Source of the DNA: Desulfarculus sp.
GTDB taxonomy: Bacteria > Desulfobacterota > Desulfarculia > Desulfarculales > Desulfarculaceae
Length of the DNA stretch: 46,992 nt
Assembly (NCBI GenBank): GCA_016218705.1
Contig: JACRDC010000020.1
Location: 1 to 46,992 of the forward strand
Reading direction: 5' to 3'
Notes under the pieces: model-generated
What the model was told of the DNA's origin: nothing
Databases searched by the model: none
What the model saw: only the letters and a program-made list of their open reading frames with translations
Program-made: the position numbers and the translations under genes
In this document: positions 8,447 through 46,992 of the stretch, piece after piece
Layout of the letters: each line of letters begins with the position of its first letter
Numbering within the stretch: position 1 is the stretch's first letter

Positions 8447-9022
8447 TCAGGCGTAGATTTTGGACATGACCTTGGCCAGGTTGTCGGCGAAGTTGGCCAC
8501 GTGGGTCATGCCCTCGTTGTCGGCTATGGCGTCGTGGGCCCCGCCGGCCCCGGCCATGCCCACGGTCCAGTAGGTGGAGCCGGGAACGGTGATGCCGTTG
8601 ATGAAGAACCACAAGAGCAGTTGCGCAAAGGCCAGGTTGTGCCCAGCCCGCCGGGCCACGGTGATGGGTCCGCCCACCTTGCCGGCCAGGAATTTGCCGT
8701 TCCAGTGGGCCACAAAGGTGGCCCGCGCCAGGAGGCTCATCATCTGGGGCACCACCGAGGACAGGTGCACCGGCGAGCCCAGCACGATGCCCTGGGCCGC
8801 TTCCATCTTGGCCAGGACGGCTGCGAAGTCGTCGTCGTCCTGGGCGCACTTGCGCTCCTTGACGCAGGCGTAGCAGCCCAGGCAGGGCTTGATGACCATC
8901 TCCCGCAGCGAAATCACCTCGGTCTCCAGGCCCCGGTCCTCCAGAACCCCCAGGCAGCGCTTCATGTATTCCATGGTGTTGCTCTGGGGGCGTGGGCTGG
9001 CGCTGATGCCCAGTACCTTCAT
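8447..9022 (-). CDS. Iron-sulfur flavoprotein (NADPH-dependent FMN reductase-like)
   Basis: A 191-residue flavodoxin-like protein. The N-terminus [16 protein letters not shown] is the phosphate-binding loop for FMN. Cys47, Cys50, Cys53 and Cys59 form a CX2CX2CX5C cluster, the compact motif of archaeal and anaerobe iron-sulfur flavoproteins (Isf), which bind a 4Fe-4S cluster next to FMN. GSPVHLSSVVPQM supplies the second FMN loop. It probably moves electrons between a dehydrogenase and a low-potential carrier. It overlaps the upstream hydratase by an ATGA and is preceded by GGAGGAAAACGAG, so the two are translationally coupled. Confidence 0.85.
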   Translation of the reverse strand: MKVLGISASPRPQSNTMEYMKRCLGVLEDRGLETEVISLREMVIKPCLGCYACVKERKCAQDDDDFAAVLAKMEAAQGIVLGSPVHLSSVVPQMMSLLARATFVAHWNGKFLAGKVGGPITVARRAGHNLAFAQLLLWFFINGITVPGSTYWTVGMAGAGGAHDAIADNEGMTHVANFADNLAKVMSKIYA

Positions 9023-9834
9023 GACTCGTTTTCCTCCAGCATCCGGGCCTGGTCCTCGGAGGTGGTCAGGGCGCCGGAGCGAAGCTGCTCCCGCATGAGC
9101 CGTCGAAAAAAGTCGTGGTCATGGCATTGGCTGAAAAGCTGGGCCTCGCGGAACAGGCCCTCGGGCAGCGGCGAGTTCTGCGCCGCCTTGACGGCGCGCT
9201 TGGCCAGGGAGACGGCGTGGGCGGGGTTGCGCAGCATTGGCGCCAGCAGCTCGCCCACGGCCTGGCGCAGTCCTGCTTCCGGGGCCACGCGGTGCACCAG
9301 ACCCAGACGGGCCGCCTGCTCGCCGCCGTAGAGCCGGCCGCTCAGAATCATCTCCATGGCCAGGCCGGAGCCCACCAGGCGCGGCAGGCGCTGGGTGCCG
9401 CCGCCGCCGGGGATCAGCCCCACCTTGACCTCGGGCAGGCCGATGCGGCTGGTGGAGGTGGCCACGCGCAGGTCGCAGGCCAGGGCCAACTCGAAGCCGC
9501 CGCCAAAGCACAGGCCGTTGATGGCCGCCACGGTGATGAGCGGGCTGGCCTCCAAGCGGTCCAAGAGCCCCTGGAAGCGCCGCGAGAAGGCATGTGCCCC
9601 CGCGCGGTCCAGGCGCATCATTTCTATGCCGTCGGCCCCGCCCACGAAGTGGCTGGACCCGGCGCCGGTGAAGACCACGGCGCGCGGGCCGCCCTCCTCC
9701 AGGGCTTGGAGTAGTTCCACCATCTGGGACATGAGATGGCTGTTGATGGAATTGCGGTCCTGGACGCGGTTTATGGTCACCCAGCAGACCTGGCCGTCGT
9801 GCTCCAGCCGCAGATGGGGGAACTTGCTGGTCAT
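9019..9834 (-). CDS. Enoyl-CoA hydratase/isomerase (crotonase family)
   Basis: A 271-residue crotonase-fold protein. It has the CoA oxyanion-hole segment [12 protein letters not shown], the [15 protein letters not shown] helix and [22 protein letters not shown]. Glu residues stand at both positions used for water addition in true hydratases (GGFELA and LPEVKVGL), so hydratase activity on a 2-enoyl-CoA is expected. It is the first structural gene of the ten-gene operon and follows a 159-bp region with promoter-like signals downstream of the double TetR gene. Dienoyl-CoA hydratase or ring-opening hydrolase activity remain alternatives. Confidence 0.88.
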
Positions 9835-9908
9835 GGACGCTCGCTAGGGTGTGGCGGTCATGCCCCGGGCCGAGGGGGGAGGGTAGGCAGTGGGAGCGCC
9901 CGGGCTGA

Positions 9909-9968
9909 GTATTAATATTAAATGAATCACCTGTCAGAATTAAGCCATGAACCATGTCCGGCTGTCAA
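9909..9968 (-). promoter_or_regulatory. Candidate promoter/operator region of the hydratase-to-hydrolase operon
   Basis: Read on the minus strand, a perfect TTGACA (9963-9968) lies 19 bp from TTAATT (9938-9943). A second possible pair, CTGACA (9932-9937) with TAATAC (9909-9914) at 17 bp, lies further down. The spacer of the first pair contains CATGGTTCATG, a short imperfect palindrome that could be the site for the TetR protein encoded just upstream, and a perfect TTAATATTAA palindrome follows. AT content jumps relative to flanking DNA. Exact boxes are uncertain. Confidence 0.45.
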
Positions 9969-9993
9969 GGGAAAATTGCGGGGCAGGAAAAGT

Positions 9994-11292
9994 CTAGGCT
10001 GGATCCAGGCCCCAAAGCACCAGGCTCACGGCGTCGGCCAGCACCTGGCGAGGCACCTCGGGATTGGCGGCAAAGTTCCACACCAGCCAGCGCAGACCCA
10101 GCATGTGGTTTAGCCCCATGAGGGAAGGTACCAGGAAATCCACGGGCAGGGCGCGTACCTCCTTGGCCTTCATGCCGGCCCGCAGGGAGCGGGCGTAGCC
10201 GTCGGCCAGGCGGCCGTAGTAATAGTGGGCCGACGAGGGCACGATGGTTTCGGACTCGGCCACGATGCGATATATCCGCGAGTGCCGGCGCAGGAAGTCG
10301 AAAAAGGCCAGCATGCCCTCGCGCTCCTTGTCGCGGCGGTCGCGGGTCTGGTCGGTGATCCGTCTGAGCTCGCGGCGCAGCTCGTGGCTTAGAAAGCGCA
10401 CCACGCCGTCCATCAACTCTTCTTTGCTGGCGAAGTGCACGTAGAAGGTGCCTTGGGCTACGCCGGCCTGCCGGGTGATCTCGGAGATGTTGGCCCGGCC
10501 GTAGCCGTACTGGCCCAACACCTGCTCGGCGGCCTGGAAGATGGCCCGCTTGGTCTTTTGCCCGGGAGTGTGGTCGGCCTGCCAGGAAAGCTGCTGCTTC
10601 TGGCGCGGGGCCAAGGCGGAGGCCGCCAGGTCGCGGGGGGCGCGCCAGGGCTTGGAGCCGCTGATGCCCCGCCGCAGGAGGTCGCTGGTGGCCTGGGCCA
10701 GGGCCGCGTCGTCCCTGGGCTGGCCTGCCTCATCCCAACGCATCTGCTGGAAACTGGCCATGCCGATAATGGCGTAGGCCACCACGTTGGGGTCCAGGGG
10801 GCGGGCTTGGCCTTGGCTGGCGGCCTGGCGGAAGAAATCACGCAAAAACCTGGCCAGGGCGTCGTAGTAGCCGATGGTCAGGCCTTCGATGAGGTCATGC
10901 TCGTTGAGCACCCGGTGCAGGCCGGAGTTCTGCCGGCAATGCCCCACCACCAGGAGCAGAACTTGGCGCAGGGCCGTGGCGTGGTCCAGTTCCGCCAGGG
11001 AGAGGGCCTGGGCCTTTTGCTCGAAGTCGGACAGCACCGCGTCGGTCAGCTCGCGGAAAACCTGCTCCTTGTTGCTGAAGTATTGGTAGAAGGTGCCTTG
11101 GCTGACCCCGCAGAGCCGGCCGATCTGGCTCACGCTGGCTTGAAAATAGCCCTGCTCCTCGAAGACCTGCCGTGCCGCGGCCAGCAAGGCCTGACGGGTG
11201 CGCTGGCCCTTGGGGGTCAGGGAACGCCGGGGGCCGCCGGGGAGCAGGGCAGGGAGAGCGGGTTTGGTTATGCCTTGTGAATCATGTGTCAT
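9994..11292 (-). CDS. Double TetR regulator: two complete TetR units in one chain
   Basis: A 432-residue protein made of two full TetR-type repressors in tandem. Unit 1 has a helix-turn-helix at about 30-76 (RQALLAAARQVFEEQGY, then QIGRLCGVSQGTFYQYFSNKEQ) and a ligand-type helical domain to about 215. Unit 2 repeats the plan: HTH at about 244-291 (GVAQGTFYVHFASKEEL) and a second helical domain to the end. Ordinary TetR proteins are ~190-220 residues with one HTH and act as dimers; one chain here could mimic a dimer and bind an asymmetric operator. It lies upstream of the ten-gene uptake/CoA operon in the same direction, and its own ATG coincides with a predicted transcription start. Repression of that operon in response to an acyl-CoA is the likely role (inference). 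Confidence 0.9.
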   Translation of the reverse strand: MTHDSQGITKPALPALLPGGPRRSLTPKGQRTRQALLAAARQVFEEQGYFQASVSQIGRLCGVSQGTFYQYFSNKEQVFRELTDAVLSDFEQKAQALSLAELDHATALRQVLLLVVGHCRQNSGLHRVLNEHDLIEGLTIGYYDALARFLRDFFRQAASQGQARPLDPNVVAYAIIGMASFQQMRWDEAGQPRDDAALAQATSDLLRRGISGSKPWRAPRDLAASALAPRQKQQLSWQADHTPGQKTKRAIFQAAEQVLGQYGYGRANISEITRQAGVAQGTFYVHFASKEELMDGVVRFLSHELRRELRRITDQTRDRRDKEREGMLAFFDFLRRHSRIYRIVAESETIVPSSAHYYYGRLADGYARSLRAGMKAKEVRALPVDFLVPSLMGLNHMLGLRWLVWNFAANPEVPRQVLADAVSLVLWGLDPA

Positions 11293-11298
11293 AAAATA

Positions 11299-11304
11299 AT
11301 TATA
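11299..11304 (-). promoter_or_regulatory. TATAAT box placing transcription start on the TetR ATG (leaderless)
   Basis: On the minus strand a perfect TATAAT (within TGTATATAAT) ends six nucleotides before the ATG at 11292. Six nucleotides is the normal distance from the -10 hexamer to +1, so the mRNA would start at the A of ATG. No Shine-Dalgarno sequence exists in this AT-rich stretch. No convincing -35 is seen. Confidence 0.55.
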
Positions 11305-11385
11305 TACAATAACCCTGGGGCCGGGTCCAGGGGCAGATGCCCCAAAGGCATGGAATAGCAGTGGCAGAAGACGGGATGACTCTCA

Positions 11386-11506
11386 TGCCAAGTTGCGATC
11401 AAACGAATAGTTTGATCGCAACTTGGTATGCGGGCCGGGCAAAATCACGCTTTTGCCCGGCCGGTCAGCAATCAAAGCCATGGATGGCTTTGATTGCATA
11501 TTGGTA
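11386..11506 (-). repeat. Repeat family B, copy 1: three-hairpin modular element
   Basis: This 121-bp element has related inverted ends of the form TACCAAnnTGCnATCAAA. Inside it are three successive perfect hairpins: 11388-11404/11410-11426 (17 bp), 11433-11444/11451-11462 (12 bp, GGCCGGGCAAAA arm) and 11468-11479/11486-11497 (12 bp). It begins directly after the stop codon of the molybdopterin oxidoreductase gene and fills most of the gap to the TetR gene. A longer second copy lies at 22561-22762, and the outer modules match almost base for base when this copy is read on the minus strand. Confidence 0.85.
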
Positions 11507-13744
11507 TCAGACGGCCCGCACCCTACAGGGCACGTAGCGGTGCAGGGGCGTGCCCAGTGGGTCGCGGTGGGTGCTTTTGGTCAGCCGGTTGACGTTAAGG
11601 CCAAAAACCTGGCCGTCGTAATTGAGGCCGAAGCCGTGGGGGATGAGCACCATGCCCTGGCGTACCTGGCCTGAGACTTGAAGCTCGCCCTCTTCGCTGC
11701 CCGCCTCAGTGGTCACTCTGACCCGCTGGCCGTCCACCAGGCCCAGCCCCTGGGCGTCGGCCGGGCTCATGGCCACGGTGCAAGCCCGCTTGCCCTGGTT
11801 CCACTGGGGGTCGCGCATGAGGGTGTTGGCGTTGTAGTCCATGTGCCGGCCGGCGTTGAGGATCAGGGGATAGCCGCTGGGCAGGCGCAGGTCCCGGGCC
11901 TCGCCGGCGGCGTCCAAGGCCTGGACCTCTTCGGCCAGTTCGGGGATGAGCACCTCGATCTTGCCCGAGGGCGTCTTGATGCCCGCCATGGGCTTGGCGG
12001 CGTCGGCCAGCCCCACCCAGAGGCCCTGGGGCTGGTCCAAGAGGGCCTGGAAGATGCGGTCGCCCTGGTCCAGGCCCGGGGCGAAGCCGGCCCGGACGGC
12101 GTTCTCGCGGAAGGCGCTGGGCGCTGTCATCAAGAGGCCCCACAGGGCCGCCTTGGCCGCGCTGTCCCACTCCTGGCCCAGGGTCTTTGCCAGCACGAAG
12201 GGCATGGCCTTGAGCACCCTGGGCTCCTGGCGCGCCCAGGCCATGAGGAGCGCGCCAAAGGCCAGCCTGCCGGCCCGGGCCGCCTGGGCAACCTGGGGTG
12301 GGATGGCTGGGATCAGGCCCAGACGCTCGGCCAGCATGGTGTGGATTTGCGCGGCTTCCCGGCATTGGGGCGGCGGGTCCACCAGGGGGCGCCGCAGTTG
12401 GAAATACACCTCGGGGTAGGTGTTGGGGAAGAAGCACCCGTCCCAGGCCTCGTAGAAGGTGCGGCAGGGCAGCACGTAGTGGGCCAGGCGGGCGGTCTCG
12501 CTCATGACGATGTCGTTGACCACCAAGAGGTCGAGCTTGGCGAAGGCCCGCTCAAAGGCCGTGGTGTCCGGATAGGCCCGCAGGGGATTGCAGGCGCTGA
12601 CCAAGACCGCGCGCAGGCGTTGGGGATGGTCGCTTAAAATCTCCTCGGGCATGACGGCTGGCGGGAAGGAGCCGGCGGCCACCGGCGGCAGATCGCTGGC
12701 CACGGTGCGCCAGGTCTTGGGGTCGCGCTCGTCGGCGTGAAAACCCAAGGGCATGACGAAGCCGGGGATGACATTGCCTCCCCTCACGCCCAGCCGGCCG
12801 CAGGCCGCGGCCAGCAGGTGCAGCAGATAGGAGCTCAGCGTGCTGTGCCGGCCCATGTAGAGACCCAGGTCCGGGTGCACGCACCAGCGCTTGCTGGCCA
12901 TGAGGCGGCACAACTCCAAGACCTGGCCGTGCTCCAATTGGCAGACCTCCAGGGCCGCGCCGATGTCCACGCCCCGGAACCAGAGGCTGACCTTGTCCCA
13001 GCCCTCCACGTGCTCCTGGAGGTATGTCCTGTCCTCCCAGCCCTGCTCCAGGATGATGGCCAGCATGGCCTTCATGAGCAAGGCGTCAGAGCCTGGGCGC
13101 ACCGGCAGGTGCAGGTTGGCTATGGCGGCGGTCTCGCTGCGGCGGGGGTCAATGGCCACCAAAAGGCGGTCCGGGTGGTTGCTGATTTCCTTGAGCACCC
13201 GGCGGGCCTGGGGCATCTGGTGGCTCATCATACCGTTCCAGCCCCAGGCCACCAGCATCTCCGTGGCCTGCTCGTCGGGGATGGCGATGCCGTACTGTTT
13301 GCCCAGCACCCGGCCCGTGACCCACCAGTGGCCGCTGAACTCCTGGCCGGCCGATGAATAGTAATACTGGGACCCCAGGGCGCGTATCAGGCTCAGGCCA
13401 AAGGCGGCCTCCATCTGCCCCCCCTGGGCCGCGCCGCCCATATAGGCCAGGCAGCGGGGGCCGTGTTCATCCACCAGCCCGCGCAGCCTCTGGGCGATCT
13501 CCTCCACCGCCTGGTCCCAGCCTATGGGCTCGAACCCCGAGCCCACCCGCTTCAGCGGCTGGGTCAGGCGGTCCTGGGGGTATTGGTGATAGATGACGTT
13601 GAGCCCCTTGCGGCAGACGTAACCCTGGCTGCGGGGGTTGTCCTTGTCGGGCCGCACGCGGCGCAGGCGGCCTTCCTCCACCAGGATTTCCAGCCCGCAG
13701 TTCTGGGCGCAGAGCACGCAGCCGGTCTTCTGCCACTGGGACAT
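11507..13744 (-). CDS. Molybdopterin-dependent oxidoreductase (BisC/formate dehydrogenase-like), cytoplasmic
   Basis: A 745-residue catalytic subunit of the DMSO-reductase superfamily. Cys9, Cys12, Cys16 and Cys44 (CX2CX3CX27C) bind an N-terminal 4Fe-4S cluster and are followed by RKG. Later segments VAWGWNGMMSH, VAIDPRRSETA, LHLPVRPGSDALLMKA and the C-terminal dinucleotide-binding domain (LNAGRHMDYNANTLM) are standard. There is no Tat signal, so the enzyme is cytoplasmic. At the usual metal-ligand site (around residues 130-142, SSAGQEFSGHWW) I see neither Cys nor Sec, so the ligand and the reaction cannot be assigned. The start at 13744 is preceded by GGGAGGTAGCG; the frame stays open to 14152, but that part overlaps the ferredoxin gene out of frame and is not coding. 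Confidence 0.88.
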   Translation of the reverse strand: MSQWQKTGCVLCAQNCGLEILVEEGRLRRVRPDKDNPRSQGYVCRKGLNVIYHQYPQDRLTQPLKRVGSGFEPIGWDQAVEEIAQRLRGLVDEHGPRCLAYMGGAAQGGQMEAAFGLSLIRALGSQYYYSSAGQEFSGHWWVTGRVLGKQYGIAIPDEQATEMLVAWGWNGMMSHQMPQARRVLKEISNHPDRLLVAIDPRRSETAAIANLHLPVRPGSDALLMKAMLAIILEQGWEDRTYLQEHVEGWDKVSLWFRGVDIGAALEVCQLEHGQVLELCRLMASKRWCVHPDLGLYMGRHSTLSSYLLHLLAAACGRLGVRGGNVIPGFVMPLGFHADERDPKTWRTVASDLPPVAAGSFPPAVMPEEILSDHPQRLRAVLVSACNPLRAYPDTTAFERAFAKLDLLVVNDIVMSETARLAHYVLPCRTFYEAWDGCFFPNTYPEVYFQLRRPLVDPPPQCREAAQIHTMLAERLGLIPAIPPQVAQAARAGRLAFGALLMAWARQEPRVLKAMPFVLAKTLGQEWDSAAKAALWGLLMTAPSAFRENAVRAGFAPGLDQGDRIFQALLDQPQGLWVGLADAAKPMAGIKTPSGKIEVLIPELAEEVQALDAAGEARDLRLPSGYPLILNAGRHMDYNANTLMRDPQWNQGKRACTVAMSPADAQGLGLVDGQRVRVTTEAGSEEGELQVSGQVRQGMVLIPHGFGLNYDGQVFGLNVNRLTKSTHRDPLGTPLHRYVPCRVRAV

Positions 13745-37505: not shown

Positions 37506-38453
37506 TCAGCCGCGCCGGGACAGCTTTATGGCCAGTATGGAGATCAGGCCGCCCAGCATGATGTATCCCAGGACCACCTCCAACATCACCAAGCCCGCCG
37601 CCGTCTCGGTGCGCGGGTTTATGTCGCCAAAGCCCAGGGTGGTGAAGGTCACGCCGCTGAAATAGAGCATGGTCGGCAGCGTGAAGGGCAGATTCTCGGC
37701 CTTGAAGTGCTCGGTGCCCATCATGAAGAAGATCAGCCCGAAGACCAGGGCGAAGCAGGCCGACCAGCCGGCCCAGCGAAGCAGGGAGTGGCCGCAGTCG
37801 CTGGTGAGCCACCACAGCCAGAACCAGCCGGGATGGGCCCGGCGGTATTCCTCCAAAAATATCTGCCCCTCGGCGTAGGACTTGAACATCTGGCTGCCGT
37901 AGCAGGTGGACAGGCGCGTGCCGAAAAAGGCCCGCTGGCGGCAGTCTTGACTGAACTTGACGCCGGTGACGTTGGCCTGCTCCAGGTTGGCCGAGCGCAG
38001 ATCAGCCGTCCGCAGGTCGGCCCCCACCAAAAAGGCCCCGCAGAAATCGGCCTCGCGCAGGTCGGCCCCCCGCAGATCGGCCTCCTCCAGGTGGGCGCCC
38101 TGGAAATTGACGCCGTGGCTGGAGGCGCCGCCGTGCCGGTCCACCCAGGAGCCGCCCTCCTGGTTGAAGGCCAGCCAGGAGCCCTTGACCCCCCTGAGGT
38201 CGGCCCCACCCAGGAAGGCCCCTTGCAGGTTGGCCCCCACCAGGGTGGCCTCCCTGAGGTCGGCCTCTTGCAGGTGGGTCCATTCCAGATCGGCGCCGGA
38301 GAGCACCGCCCCTCGCAGGTTGACCTGATTGAGGCTGGCGCTGCTTAAGTCGGCGCCGCTCAAGTCGGGCGTCAAGCCGGGGTTCTCCTGGCGCCATTGG
38401 TTGAAGGCCGGCGCGCCCTGGGCGAGCACGGCCAGATGTTCGCTGTTGGCCAT
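37506..38453 (-). CDS. Pentapeptide-repeat / two-TM potassium channel fusion
   Basis: A 315-residue protein in two parts. Residues ~29-168 are A(D/N)LxxA pentapeptide repeats (LSGADLSSASLNQVNL, LREADFCGAFLVGADL), which fold as a quadrilateral beta-helix; about 30 residues (88-118) interrupt the run. Residues ~226-310 form a channel module: TM1, pore helix, selectivity filter Thr272-Leu-Gly-Phe-Gly-Asp277, TM2. The filter TLGFGD fits K+ selectivity. The start at 38453 is used because upstream codons lie in repeat DNA; its ribosome site is weak. It shares a minus operon with the hydrolase below. Confidence 0.87.
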   Translation of the reverse strand: MANSEHLAVLAQGAPAFNQWRQENPGLTPDLSGADLSSASLNQVNLRGAVLSGADLEWTHLQEADLREATLVGANLQGAFLGGADLRGVKGSWLAFNQEGGSWVDRHGGASSHGVNFQGAHLEEADLRGADLREADFCGAFLVGADLRTADLRSANLEQANVTGVKFSQDCRQRAFFGTRLSTCYGSQMFKSYAEGQIFLEEYRRAHPGWFWLWWLTSDCGHSLLRWAGWSACFALVFGLIFFMMGTEHFKAENLPFTLPTMLYFSGVTFTTLGFGDINPRTETAAGLVMLEVVLGYIMLGGLISILAIKLSRRG

Positions 38454-38516
38454 GAAACTGGTTGTCACTCCGTGGTTGGTTGCTGGTTCCTTGTATGCAT
38501 CAACTCGCCCTTTGTC

Positions 38517-38598
38517 TTCGTAGGGGAGGGGTTTACCCCCTCCCGTCTTGTTATTTCCCGATGCCCTCACGGGCGGGGATAAACCCCGCCCCCACGAA
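38517..38598. repeat. Two inverted REP-like family D repeats
   Basis: TTCGTAGGGGAGGGG with its partner (38517-38544) and, in opposite orientation, GGGCGGGGATAAACCCCGCCC followed by CCACGAA (38571-38598). Each is a short GC hairpin with a TTTA/TAAA loop. They belong to the same family as the terminator at 22331. The surrounding 38454-38711 gap carries no gene. Confidence 0.75.
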
Positions 38599-38711: not shown

Positions 38712-40646
38712 TTATCCTTGCACCATGCGGGCCTGGTAGCGGTACTCCATCAGGTCTTGCAGTTGGCTTATCACGCCGAAGCTCTCCTTGAGCATCTTGC
38801 GTTGCAGGCCGCTCAAGGCGGCCGGGTCCACGAAGTTGTCGGGCACCTCGCCCCGGGCGCGGGCCTCCAGATGGCGGCCGATGCGCAGGATGGTCATGAA
38901 GCTGAAGGCCTCCTTGAGGTCGGCGGCCAGGGAGGGTTTGATAAGGCCGGCCTGGGCCACGGCCTCCAGGCGCTCCAGGGTGTTGGTGATGACCAGCCCC
39001 AGGTCCAGGGCCATGACCCGCACGGCGTCCACCATGGGGGTCAGCCCGCTGAGCTTGAGGTTGAGCTTGTTCTTGTGCTCGCCGCTTTTCTCGACCACGA
39101 ACTGGCGCAGAAAGCCCAAGGGCGGGCGGTTGTACAGGGCGTTCTTGGCCATGTAGCGCAGGAAGAGCCGGTTGCCCTCCAGGCCCTCCTTGAGCTTCTG
39201 TTGCAGGTTCTCGATGAAGTCGGCCTCGGCGTAGATGGCGCGGAAGTCGAAGAAGATGGTGGCCAGGCGCAGGCTCAGGGGCTCGGGGTCCTGTATCCAG
39301 CGCAGGAAGGTCTCCTGCCACTGGCGCTCGGGCTGGCACCAGCGGGGGTTGTTGGCCATGACCTCGCCCAGGCAGCGGGGGAAGCCGCAGGCCTCCAGGC
39401 CGGCCACCACGCGCCCGGCAAAGCCCAGGAACCAGCGCTGCACCGCCTCCAGGCGCTCGGGCGGCAGGTTGGCGAAGATCAGCGCGTTGTCCTGGTCGGT
39501 GCGCAGGGTCTGCTCGCGGCGGCCCTCGCTGCCCAGGGCCATCCACACGTAGGGCACCGGCGGCCGGCCCAGGCCCGAGTGCTCCATCTGCCCCTCCACC
39601 AGCTCCAAAAGCTTGATGGTCAGGCGGTCGTTGAACTCGGTGACCAGCGCCAGCATGGTGGGGGCGTTGCCGCCCTGGCGCAGGAGCATCTCCAGCACCC
39701 GGTCCACCTTTTTGTGCACCAGCACCAGGTCGTCCAGGTTGGCCACCTTCTCTATGTCGCGCACCACGGTCACCGGCGAGGAGCCGGTGAGCCCGCGCAG
39801 GTCGTGGTCGCTGATGAGCCCCACCACGCGGTCCTGCTCCGTGACCACCAAGTGGTTGACGCCGTGGGTGCTCATGGCCAGCAGGGCCTCGAAGATGTGG
39901 CTCTCCGGGCCCAGGGCGTGCACCGGCTGGCTCATGAACTCCAGCACCGGGCGGCCGGCGGAGCGGCCCTGGGCCAGCACCCTTGAGCGCAGGTCGCTGT
40001 CGGTGAGGATGCCCAGCGGGTGCCCCGACTCCTCCACCACCACCACCGAGCCCACCCGGCGCACCATCATCAGGTGGGCGGCGGCCTTGACCGGGGTGGC
40101 CGGCAGGCAGGTGAGCACGTCTTTGGTCATCACCTCGGCCACCCGGCCTTGCACCAGGGAGGCGTCCAGGCCGGCGCCGTCCAAGAGGCCGCCGGCCGGG
40201 TCCTGGCCGGCCGTCCGCATGGCCTGAAGGTTGCGGGCCAGGCCGAAGCCAAAGTGGCGCTCTAGACTGGGATGGCGGGCCACCAGATCGCGGAAGGCGT
40301 CGCCGGACAGGAGGTAGCAGATCAGGTCCTCGCGGGCCGTGACCCTAAACAGGGCGCGGCTGCCCTGAAGAAGGCTCACGGCGCCGAAGTACTCACCCTC
40401 GCCGCGCTGGTCCACCAGGATATCCTCGCCGTCCTTCTGGGGCAGGGATATCTTGGCCGAGCCGGTCTGGATGACGTAGAGGAACTGGGCCGGCTCGCCG
40501 CCGGCCTCGATGACCACCTGCCCCCGGGGGAAGTAGGCGATCTCCATCTGCTCCACCGCGGCCTCGAGTTCCTCGGCGGGCAGGGTGTCGAAGGGCACGA
40601 CCTTGCGAACGAACTCCAACACGCGGGGAAAGGCGGCTTCGGTCAT
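38712..40646 (-). CDS. cNMP-binding / CBS pair / DUF294 nucleotidyltransferase-like regulator
   Basis: A 644-residue cytoplasmic protein. Residues ~20-150 form a cNMP-binding domain (FPRGQVVIEAGGEPAQFLYVIQTG, GEGEYFGAVSLL). Residues ~168-225 and ~233-290 are two CBS domains (EVMTKDVLTCLPATPVKAAAHLM; HALGPESHIFEALLAM). The DUF294 nucleotidyltransferase-like domain (~330-470) has GSEGRREQTLRTDQDNALIF, the GS-x-D-x-D pattern with both acidic residues. A DUF294 C-terminal helical domain closes it. Related to GlnD-type uridylyltransferases in fold, it is thought to regulate partner proteins. The usual neighbour is a DEDDh exonuclease. The promoter has an extended -10. Confidence 0.9.
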   Translation of the reverse strand: MTEAAFPRVLEFVRKVVPFDTLPAEELEAAVEQMEIAYFPRGQVVIEAGGEPAQFLYVIQTGSAKISLPQKDGEDILVDQRGEGEYFGAVSLLQGSRALFRVTAREDLICYLLSGDAFRDLVARHPSLERHFGFGLARNLQAMRTAGQDPAGGLLDGAGLDASLVQGRVAEVMTKDVLTCLPATPVKAAAHLMMVRRVGSVVVVEESGHPLGILTDSDLRSRVLAQGRSAGRPVLEFMSQPVHALGPESHIFEALLAMSTHGVNHLVVTEQDRVVGLISDHDLRGLTGSSPVTVVRDIEKVANLDDLVLVHKKVDRVLEMLLRQGGNAPTMLALVTEFNDRLTIKLLELVEGQMEHSGLGRPPVPYVWMALGSEGRREQTLRTDQDNALIFANLPPERLEAVQRWFLGFAGRVVAGLEACGFPRCLGEVMANNPRWCQPERQWQETFLRWIQDPEPLSLRLATIFFDFRAIYAEADFIENLQQKLKEGLEGNRLFLRYMAKNALYNRPPLGFLRQFVVEKSGEHKNKLNLKLSGLTPMVDAVRVMALDLGLVITNTLERLEAVAQAGLIKPSLAADLKEAFSFMTILRIGRHLEARARGEVPDNFVDPAALSGLQRKMLKESFGVISQLQDLMEYRYQARMVQG

Positions 40647-45047: not shown

Positions 45048-45536
45048 TTGAGCATCTCCCGGCGAAAATCCTCCCTGTGGCGCGCCTGCCTGGCCACGCT
45101 GGTCTTGGCGGTGGTGGGAGGCTTCTTGTTCAACTGGCTCATGCCCCAGGGCGTAGGCTTCATCCCCCCCGAGGTGGCCAAGCCCCTGTGGAAGGCCATC
45201 GCCCCGGCCCAGGCCAAGGAGCTCAAGGAGCAGGGCGCGGTCTTTTTGGACGCCCGCGAGGCCGGCGACTACGGCAAGGCCCGCCTGCGCGGGGCCTTGA
45301 AGCTGCCCGCCGGCGAGATTGACAAGCTCTACCGCTTCCTGGAGCCCACCCTCAAGCAGGCCCCGGCCCTGGTGGTCTACGGCCAGAGCACCTCGCGCTT
45401 CCCGGCGGCCTACCTGGCCCAGCACCTCAAGCGCCAGGGCTATGAAAAGGTGTATGTGCTGGAGGGCTGCCTGGACACCTTGCGCGGTCAGGGCTTCGAC
45501 ATCCAGGAGATCAAGCGCCAGGGGGCCTCGTCATGA
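45048..45536 (+). CDS. Membrane-anchored rhodanese-like protein without the usual catalytic Cys
   Basis: A 162-residue protein. Residues ~12-33 form a membrane anchor; residues ~48-155 form a rhodanese fold: FLDAREAGDYGKARLRGALKLPAGEI, then LVVYGQSTSRFPAAYLAQHLKRQGYEKVYVLEG. The position normally taken by the sulfur-accepting Cys (V-V-Y-C) is Gly112, while the following loop Arg117 is kept. A Cys occurs at 141, in LEGC where most rhodaneses have LEGG. Either the domain is non-catalytic or the Cys has moved. The TTG start has GAGGCGGA upstream. It overlaps the MauE/DoxX gene by ATGA. Confidence 0.8.
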   Translation: MSISRRKSSLWRACLATLVLAVVGGFLFNWLMPQGVGFIPPEVAKPLWKAIAPAQAKELKEQGAVFLDAREAGDYGKARLRGALKLPAGEIDKLYRFLEPTLKQAPALVVYGQSTSRFPAAYLAQHLKRQGYEKVYVLEGCLDTLRGQGFDIQEIKRQGASS

Positions 45537-46036
45537 AAGCGCGCCTCATGGAGCTGGTTTCCCTGGCGGCGCGCTGGTTCGTGGCCGGGGTGTACATCTT
45601 CGCCGCCTACGACAAGGTCTGGGACCCGGCGGCCTTCGCCAAGTCGGTGGCCACCTACGACCTGTTGCCCCTGTGGGCGGTCAACTCGGCGAGCGTGGTG
45701 CTGGCCTGGCTGGAGATTCTGGTGGGCGCCCAACTGCTGCTGGGCCTGTACCACCGGGCGGCGGCGGTGTGGGCCTCGGGGCTTTTGGTCTTCTTCACCG
45801 GCCTGATGCTCTACGCCGGCTACACCGGCGCCGGCTTCGACTGCGGCTGCTTCCCCGGCGGCGGGGGGGCCGCCGCCCACGAGGCTGGCTACGAGGGCGC
45901 CCTGCGCGACATCCTCTTCCTGATGCCGGCCCTGTGGGTGGTCTGGCGCCCCGGTCGCTGGCTGGCGCTGACCCCCCAGGCCAGCGGCCGCGACGGCGAG
46001 TACCTCTCCGACTCCTGGGGCCGCCATATCTCCTGA
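45533..46036 (+). CDS. MauE/DoxX-family redox-associated membrane protein
   Basis: A 167-residue four-helix membrane protein. WFVAGVYIFAAYDKVWDPAAFAKSVATYDLLP is the family's first helix and loop, and AWLEILVGAQLLLGLY the second. Cys104-Gly-Cys106 in FDCGCFPG is the redox pair typical of MauE-like proteins, which support disulfide formation or sulfur transfer in the envelope. Its four-base overlap with the rhodanese-like gene shows they are made together and probably act together in periplasmic thiol or sulfur chemistry (inference). Confidence 0.87.
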   Translation: MKARLMELVSLAARWFVAGVYIFAAYDKVWDPAAFAKSVATYDLLPLWAVNSASVVLAWLEILVGAQLLLGLYHRAAAVWASGLLVFFTGLMLYAGYTGAGFDCGCFPGGGGAAAHEAGYEGALRDILFLMPALWVVWRPGRWLALTPQASGRDGEYLSDSWGRHIS

Positions 46037-46052
46037 CCGCCACCCACCGGTC

Positions 46053-46098
46053 AAAACGCCAGGGCCGGACCCTGGCGGACCCGGCCCTGATTCTTCAA
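46053..46098. terminator. Bidirectional terminator with alternative stems
   Basis: CGCCAGGG (46057-46064) pairs with CCCTGGCG (46070-46077); on the minus strand it is followed at once by TTTTGA, an intrinsic terminator for the ZraP-like gene. An overlapping alternative pairs 46061-46068 with 46081-46088. TGAAGAATCAGGGCCG (minus strand, 46082-46097) is identical to 24445-24460. Confidence 0.65.
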
Positions 46099-46111
46099 CG
46101 TTTACGTAAGG

Positions 46112-46558
46112 CTAGTTGGCGGGCGCCGCCGGGGGCTGGCCCCGCCTGGGCCGGTCCTTGTCCGCCTTGCGGTCCCAGCCGTCATGGTGGTACTTGTAGC
46201 GCTTGAAGTATTGGGGGTACTTGGCCAGGTACTCGTTGTACTTCTTCATGACCTGGGCCAACAGGTCCACCTTCTCGTCGGCCACGGCCTTGATTTTGGC
46301 CCCGTCGGGGGTGGGCTGGGCCAAGAGGGTCTTCAGTTCCACCCGCTTGGCGGCCAACTGCTGGCGCAGGGCCATGGTGTCGTTGAGAAAATCTGCCTTG
46401 ACCTTCTTGTACTCCGCCCGCTGCTCCGGCGTCATTTTGTGGTGGTAACCTTGGCCACGCTCCGGGCCGGGGGCCTTGGCGGCATCCGCCGCCAGGGCCG
46501 GCAGGCTGAAGCAGACCGCCACGGCCAGGGCCACCAGGATCGTCAGCGCCTTTTTCAT
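46112..46558 (-). CDS. ZraP/Spy-CpxP-like periplasmic protein
   Basis: A 148-residue protein with signal peptide MKKALTILVALAVAVCFSLPALA-AD. The mature part is helical and matches ZraP in MTPEQRAEYKKVKADFLND, MALRQQLAAKRVELKTLLAQ and PDGAKIKAVADEKVDLLAQ. A His-rich start (GYHHKM) and end (YKYHHDGWD) could bind metal. The tail is basic and Pro-rich. ZraP is a zinc-binding periplasmic chaperone. GGAGAGGGG precedes the ATG at 46558; an ATG ten codons earlier would include the ribosome site. The sigma-54 promoter upstream agrees with zraP of E. coli. Confidence 0.82.
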   Translation of the reverse strand: MKKALTILVALAVAVCFSLPALAADAAKAPGPERGQGYHHKMTPEQRAEYKKVKADFLNDTMALRQQLAAKRVELKTLLAQPTPDGAKIKAVADEKVDLLAQVMKKYNEYLAKYPQYFKRYKYHHDGWDRKADKDRPRRGQPPAAPAN

Positions 46559-46625
46559 GGACCCCTCTCCTTCCTGTTCAGGTTGCATCCTTCAGGCACA
46601 ATCTTCCCCTAATTACTAATATTTT

Positions 46626-46641
46626 AGCACCAAGCGTGCCA
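46626..46641 (-). promoter_or_regulatory. Sigma-54 (-24/-12) promoter of the ZraP-like gene
   Basis: On the minus strand TGGCACGCTTGGTGCT: the -24 block TGGCACG is perfect, the -12 block is GTGCT against TTGCT, and GG and GC are exactly 10 bp apart. Predicted +1 falls near 46615, giving a leader of about 57 bases. Confidence 0.7.
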
Positions 46642-46854
46642 GGTGACGCAAAAGAGGCCTTGGCTATTTTATAATGAAATTTCCAGTAAATAAGCTAAAG
46701 GCCTTCGACAAGGGCCAGGGGGCCGCCCAGGGGTGTGTAAAAAATTTATGCGCTCACGTACCGTGCTTGCGTAGTTGTTACTCGCTTGGATTTATGCTTT
46801 TTTCCAGCCGCCGGCCCTGGGCCTGCCTTGGCCAGAAGACAAAAAACGAATACC

Positions 46855-46992
46855 AAGCGGTTTTTTTGTGTCCACGCTCCCACGCCCGGCCATACGGCGC
46901 CCTCGCGTTGCGCAGGCCCCACCGAGGCGGCCTGGTCTTTGGGGTTCTTGCGCGCGGCTGGGCCTCACGCCGCCAGGGCCATGCGTAATACC
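46855..46992. repeat. Repeat family A, copy 3 (cut by the window edge)
   Basis: The flank AAGCGGTTTTTTTGTGTCC leads into inverted-end sequence CGCTCCCACGCCCGGCCATAC at 46868-46895. The interior (GAGGCGGC, CTTTGGGG, CTCACGCCGC) follows copy 1 read on the minus strand closely, so these two form a subfamily distinct from copy 2. The other end lies beyond 46992. The preceding 46642-46854 contains no gene I can support. Confidence 0.75.

Follow-up and report, generated by a model that had tools for sequence, protein, structure and literature searches.

Inspection of the window, a stretch of 46,992 nucleotides that makes up the whole of contig C106 of its Desulfarculus genome, reveals a detached zraP gene, here called zraP2, that is preceded by a sigma-54 promoter and, further upstream, by a pair of activator boxes. 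Judged from the sequence features described below, we assign a probability of about 80% to the reading that this promoter is activated by a ZraS/ZraR-like pair encoded on another contig of the same genome, C93. The circuit is of a known kind in a new arrangement.

zraP2 encodes a ZraP homologue

The zraP2 open reading frame (46112..46558, minus strand) lies near the contig end and encodes a ZraP-like protein of 148 aa. Inspection by eye indicates an N terminus resembling a signal peptide, the His-rich stretches GYHHK and YKYHHDGW, and a Shine-Dalgarno-like AGGAGAGG before the gene (46564..46571, minus strand). Also by eye, the gene is followed by a terminator-like hairpin, GCCAGGG-TCCGG-CCCTGGC then GTTTT (46053..46076, minus strand), so that zraP2 is probably a one-gene transcript; the hairpin is absent from the list of a terminator scan that requires at least 5 T.

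The preliminary description had named a clear ZraP homologue downstream of the promoter, and both profile and structure comparisons uphold that assignment. The product belongs to Pfam Metal_resist (PF13801, 49.2 bits versus a cut-off of 29.2), and its best NCBIfam match is ZraP (NF008584), where a score of 56.4 bits under the equivalog cut-off of 200 makes it a ZraP homologue and not the enterobacterial equivalog by the NCBIfam rule. Salmonella ZraP (PDB 3lay) is matched at the sequence level with an E value of 9.1e-10. An AlphaFold2 model built from 18 family sequences has a mean pLDDT of 73.8 and is confident in the core only. The top Foldseek matches of this model are the 3lay chains (E 4e-4 to 1.3e-3), with a TM-score by target of 0.84-0.90, an rmsd of 1.2-1.8 and an identity of 38-39% over the core. 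The model thus predicts the helical-hairpin ZraP fold of 3lay, and ZraP2 is a putative periplasmic chaperone; a ZraP in the functional sense would also bind zinc or copper and feed back on ZraSR.

A conserved sigma-54 promoter precedes zraP2

The predicted -24/-12 promoter, TGGCACGCTTGGTGCT (46626..46641, minus strand), has exact GG-N10-GC spacing and matches 11 of the 12 consensus bases, the sole departure being GTGCT for TTGCT. A sigma-54 promoter had been proposed here on the strength of that spacing, and the proposal withstands comparison with chance. When TGGCACG-N5-TGCT is searched as the pattern TGGCACGNNNNNTGCW, the single exact match in the window is 46626-46641, and 100 shuffles of the window yield a mean of 0.08 exact matches, with at least one match in 7 of the 100. 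With two mismatches allowed, the window holds no excess of the promoter pattern (34 found versus 41.3 expected), and the information thus lies in the near-perfect form alone. Across the genome, which carries one copy of rpoN, 19 strict sigma-54 sites are found versus 4 for a reversed control pattern. A looser form, TGGCAC-N6-TGCW, was set aside, being weakly enriched in this genome (36 versus 21) and not enriched in several others.

A family search covered 20 genomes, this one included, and returned ZraP-like matches in 19. When the -24/-12 element is counted within 230 bp upstream of the ZraP match, 25 of the 30 fetched ZraP-like loci have it at 10 or 11 of 12 bases, and five (L024, L025, L026, L028 and L031) lack it. 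Among the hits listed, a second site of equal quality occurs in 1 of the 25 element-bearing loci (L022, 10 of 12). Retention of the element in 25 of 30 loci argues that the promoter is not a chance match, and this conservation confirms the predicted promoter as real; exact spacing, a -24/-12 consensus, conservation and the presence of rpoN are all found together. Sigma-54 transcription starts about 12 bases after the -12 GC, and the start of zraP2 is predicted near 46615. A scan of 45950-46992 for sigma-70-type promoters found none, which is weak evidence because shuffles gave just 0.2.

A predicted paired activator site lies upstream of the promoter

An activator site had been expected at 46700-46790, and two predicted boxes fall inside that stretch. 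Box 1, GCGCATAAATTTTTTACAC as read on the minus strand (46735..46753), lies 112 bases upstream of TGGCAC and scores 23.1 under a held-out motif; box 2 (46767..46785) lies 32 bases upstream of box 1 and is weaker, with a score of 9.2. The motif is a palindrome model trained on the upstream regions of 21 ZraP promoters, including that of zraP1 on C93. Left out of training were the window gene, its orthologues L003 and L004, the promoters on contigs C1 and C37 discussed below, and L020, whose upstream DNA is too short. At width 19 the consensus is GTGCATAAAATTTATGCAC and the model score 682.6, compared with 674.9 at width 17 and 586.6 at width 21; the even widths 18, 20 and 22 were rejected for mixed phases and scores of 524-557. 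Apart from L016 (11.0) and L027 (14.7), all training regions, 19 of 21, contain a box scoring at least 18.

Box 1 is the best site among all 46992 bases of the window, where the next separate site scores 13.7. None of 200 dinucleotide shuffles of the window reaches 23.1 (largest 16.6). Shuffling only the AT-rich 300 bp upstream gives values of up to 22.2, so base composition matters locally, and none of 2000 such shuffles reaches the score of box 1 or contains a pair as good at a spacing of 31 or 32. The held-out orthologue L004, from genome G017, has a box scoring 22.1, and the held-out orthologue L003, from G013, has no box under the motif model. By the held-out motif, zraP2 is preceded by an activator site like that before the zraPSR operon, as would be expected of a member of a ZraR regulon.

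A ZraS/ZraR-like pair on contig C93 is the probable activator

The preliminary description had also expected a zraSR pair elsewhere in the genome and a regulator not adjacent to the window gene. Both points are borne out on C93, where profile matches identify such a pair behind another zraP. The cluster begins with zraP1 (8795-9277), which is preceded by the same boxes as zraP2, and continues with a ZraS-like kinase (9360-10961) and a ZraR-like response regulator (10958-12334) with receiver, sigma-54 and HTH_8 domains and the GAFTGA motif. The best of 79 NCBIfam families for the kinase is ZraS (NF007688), at 280.6 bits and under the equivalog cut-off of 479. The regulator scores 473 bits against ZraR (NF007689, cut-off 760), and its top NCBIfam score, 510.1 bits, is for AtoC, again under the cut-off (714). 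Because the pair sits behind zraP1, zraP2 is a second, detached zraP. Of 20 extended regions in the family, 16 have zraS- and zraR-like genes following zraP, one of them (L081) with the zraR-like gene about 3.6 kb further on. The four exceptions are the zraP2 orthologues L064 and L065, a lone zraP-like gene of G002 (L083), and L082 on C40, in which the extended-region search gave no ZraP match. By eye, the tails of the two paralogues differ, that of zraP1 (L066, 8795-9277) being Gly/Met-rich and that of zraP2 (46112-46558) His/Lys-rich, which may mean different metals.

The main competing explanation keeps the sigma-54 promoter and gives it another enhancer-binding protein as principal activator, such that the C93 pair is just the neighbour of zraP1. 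We regard this as improbable, though not negligibly so. The regulator scores higher for AtoC than for ZraR, and PF00158 is matched 35 times in the genome, with scores above 190 bits in at least 31 cases, which makes another activator possible; by the NCBIfam cut-off the C93 regulator is not ZraR. In the excerpted text of PMC3333781, moreover, DVU3384 of Desulfovibrio vulgaris is targeted by a second regulator, DVU0621, as well. Against this, the boxes in the family precede zraPSR operons, that is to say the regulator's own gene; a box recurs before the gene adjoining zraPSR in G015; and boxes are absent from the remaining 15 strict sigma-54 sites. Activation by the C93 pair remains the favoured reading.

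A case bearing on the promoter itself is found in G013, where the orthologue encodes a 92% identical protein and retains the -24/-12 element without the boxes, an alignment gap of about 170 columns covering the box stretch. Upstream of this near-identical gene (L064, G013:C228) the boxes are missing as if deleted. The strong box of L004 in G017 leads us to read this absence as loss, and an assembly fault may also account for it. That the window site is a relic or a chance match, with zraP2 expressed from a different promoter, is very improbable: the boxes lost in G013, the one base off consensus in the -12 element and the 7 of 100 shuffles containing a match would favour it, against which stand the recurrence of the element at this spacing in 25 of 30 loci, held-out boxes in both the window and L004, and the sigma-70 scan, low in power, that found no rival promoter. 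Lone zraP copies with promoter and boxes are also found in other genera, in L029 and probably in L027 and L030.

The promoter and paired boxes recur as a module

Of the 19 strict sigma-54 sites in this genome, four have boxes, those of zraPSR, zraP2, a MacAB-type operon on C1 and a DUF6515-SH3 gene on C37. At these four the box scores at least 20 and has a partner 31-32 bp away, compared with 8.5 or less at the other 15. The paired positions are -144/-113 on C93, -144/-112 in the window, -141/-110 on C1 and -144/-112 on C37. The C1 module precedes genes for an HlyD/MacA-like adaptor, an ABC ATPase and a MacB-type permease; the C37 module precedes the gene for the DUF6515-SH3 protein, then one for a TolC-type outer membrane protein, then an HlyD-like match (C37:34521-35624). 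Since the same paired site precedes the operon of the likely regulator as well as two operons with a probable role in efflux, the whole set is probably switched on by one sensor.

A genome search with an IUPAC box pattern gave 13 strand matches at 9 places versus 0 for the control, and five of the nine places, one each on C106, C93 and C37 and two on C1, are followed downstream by strict sigma-54 sites. The pattern was written after the window box had been seen, so its match in the window is circular, and the independent test is that of the held-out motif. Single-box matches on C25, C46 and C65 were rejected as targets because no strict sigma-54 site is near them; away from any such site, boxes score as well as 18.3 on C25 and 15.7 on C65. 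The C25 box (G000:C25:48231-48249, L087; 18.3) is activator-like and single, with neither partner nor strict site. A strong pair (23.4 and 17.8, 31 bp apart) occurs at G000:C18:18411-18460 (L086), with LolDE-like ABC genes on one side and a substrate-binding-protein gene on the other, and is flanked by weak sigma-54-like sites, AGGCATTGATCTTGCT towards the former and TGGTAACATAATTGCT towards the latter. We treat this pair as a candidate member of the regulon only.

The extent of the module varies across the family. Among macA-like loci examined in detail, box and site occur together in 2 of 10 (this genome and G017), so control of MacAB-type operons is not general; the close G013 macA-like orthologue has neither. 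For DUF6515-type loci, of which 29 were fetched, both are present in 9 of the 18 examined in detail, and a scan of 59 loci (L100-L158) added nothing beyond weak single boxes, one place being L152 and the other the opposite strand of L100. A family-wide box search with three mismatches proved too loose, its yield not exceeding the reversed control in G002, G011, G012, G018 and others. In G015, zraPSR is directly followed by the DUF6515-SH3 gene, and the presence of a separate box (23.6) and a sigma-54-like site (10/12) before that gene provides a second, independent link between box and regulator.

Beyond the family, a regulator scan of named genomes drew on at least 590 stretches and 80 loci, with relatives that are distant (51% identity or less). 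ZraP was found by profile in 4 of the 80 listed regulator loci, from a Desulfobacula, a Desulfobacterales and two Desulfovibrionaceae, with sigma-54-like sites at 10-12 of 12 and weak boxes (scores of 6.2-13.9).

Proposed mechanism and relation to known Zra systems

In the mechanism that we propose, the ZraS-like membrane kinase of C93 would sense a periplasmic or envelope signal and phosphorylate the ZraR-like response regulator through its receiver, which is joined to an AAA+ domain with GAFTGA and a Fis-type HTH. Two regulator dimers would bind GTGCATAA-N3-TTATGCAC palindromes 31-32 bp apart, a distance of about three helical turns that would place the paired boxes on one face of the DNA. 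Bound upstream at distances of about 110 and 142-144 bases from the -24 element, the regulator would open the sigma-54 promoter. The same regulator may act on zraP1-zraS-zraR, zraP2, the MacAB-type operon and the DUF6515-SH3 gene upstream of the TolC-like gene. An E. coli-like ZraSR/sigma-54 envelope circuit had been suggested from the window; its parts stand (ZraP homologue, promoter, activator-like site, rpoN and a ZraS/ZraR-like pair), and it would operate as in this mechanism, with zinc or envelope stress as a candidate inducer.

Common descriptions of ZraPSR make it a small zinc system of debated purpose. On the box matches, zraP2 probably belongs to a ZraR-type regulon that is broader than its E. 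coli counterpart. We see an even chance of a broad envelope and efflux response in the family, in which one pair and its paired enhancer control two ZraPs with Gly/Met-rich and His/Lys-rich tails, a MacAB-type exporter, and a DUF6515-SH3 envelope protein together with a TolC-like channel; a LolDE-like ABC exporter may belong to it as well. If the wiring is right, a distant lineage has placed exporters and envelope proteins under a ZraR-type regulator, the second copy of a chaperone gene can remain in the regulon away from its regulator, and an exact DNA motif and a target list become available for testing. Such wiring, if true, would support the envelope-stress view of ZraPSR.

The portion of PMC7657598 consulted gives zraP, zraSR and mgtA as the direct E. 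coli ZraR targets by ChIP-exo and argues for a broader envelope role of ZraPSR. The E. coli and Salmonella system resembles the present one in the ZraP fold (3lay), a sigma-54-dependent response regulator and zraP as a target (PMC7657598, same portion). In contrast to that system, zraP1-zraS-zraR here form a co-directional cluster with a second zraP located elsewhere, and boxes also precede MacAB-type and DUF6515-SH3/TolC-like genes. Among the zraP/ZraR papers listed by a literature search outside subscription journals, no title or abstract opening describes a ZraR regulon with MacAB.

We take DVU3384 to be a ZraP of D. vulgaris, so that sigma-54 control of a zraP in that species is already published. 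As far as the extract of PMC4641369 goes, the targets of DVU3381, namely DVU3382-DVU3381 and DVU3384, are listed under envelope stress response. That regulon is alike in its GAFTGA-bearing response regulator and sigma-54, and its published sigma-54 consensus, tGGcacg and tTGCt, is also that of the present case; it has two target transcripts listed, compared with the four that carry the module here. Excerpts of PMC3333781 describe the DVU3381 binding site as conserved in close species and call DVU3384 hypothetical. The D. alaskensis gene called zraP falls under copper, according to the available lines of PMC8836040, so the inducer of zraP2 is not to be assumed. In Vibrio cholerae, Zra2 (VC_1314-1316) is likewise a proposed second Zra-like envelope system, whose regulator was compared with CpxR in the sections at hand of PMC10848872; it is a full three-gene system in which the first gene has no zraP similarity, whereas the present case is a lone zraP paralogue.

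Other genes of the window

Convergent with zraP2 on the plus strand (45048-46036) are a rhodanese-like gene and then one for a MauE/DoxX-type membrane protein. Further away, the minus strand encodes a pentapeptide-repeat protein fused to an ion-channel domain (37506-38570; PF00805 and PF07885) and a DUF294 nucleotidyltransferase with cyclic-nucleotide-binding and CBS domains (38712-40646).
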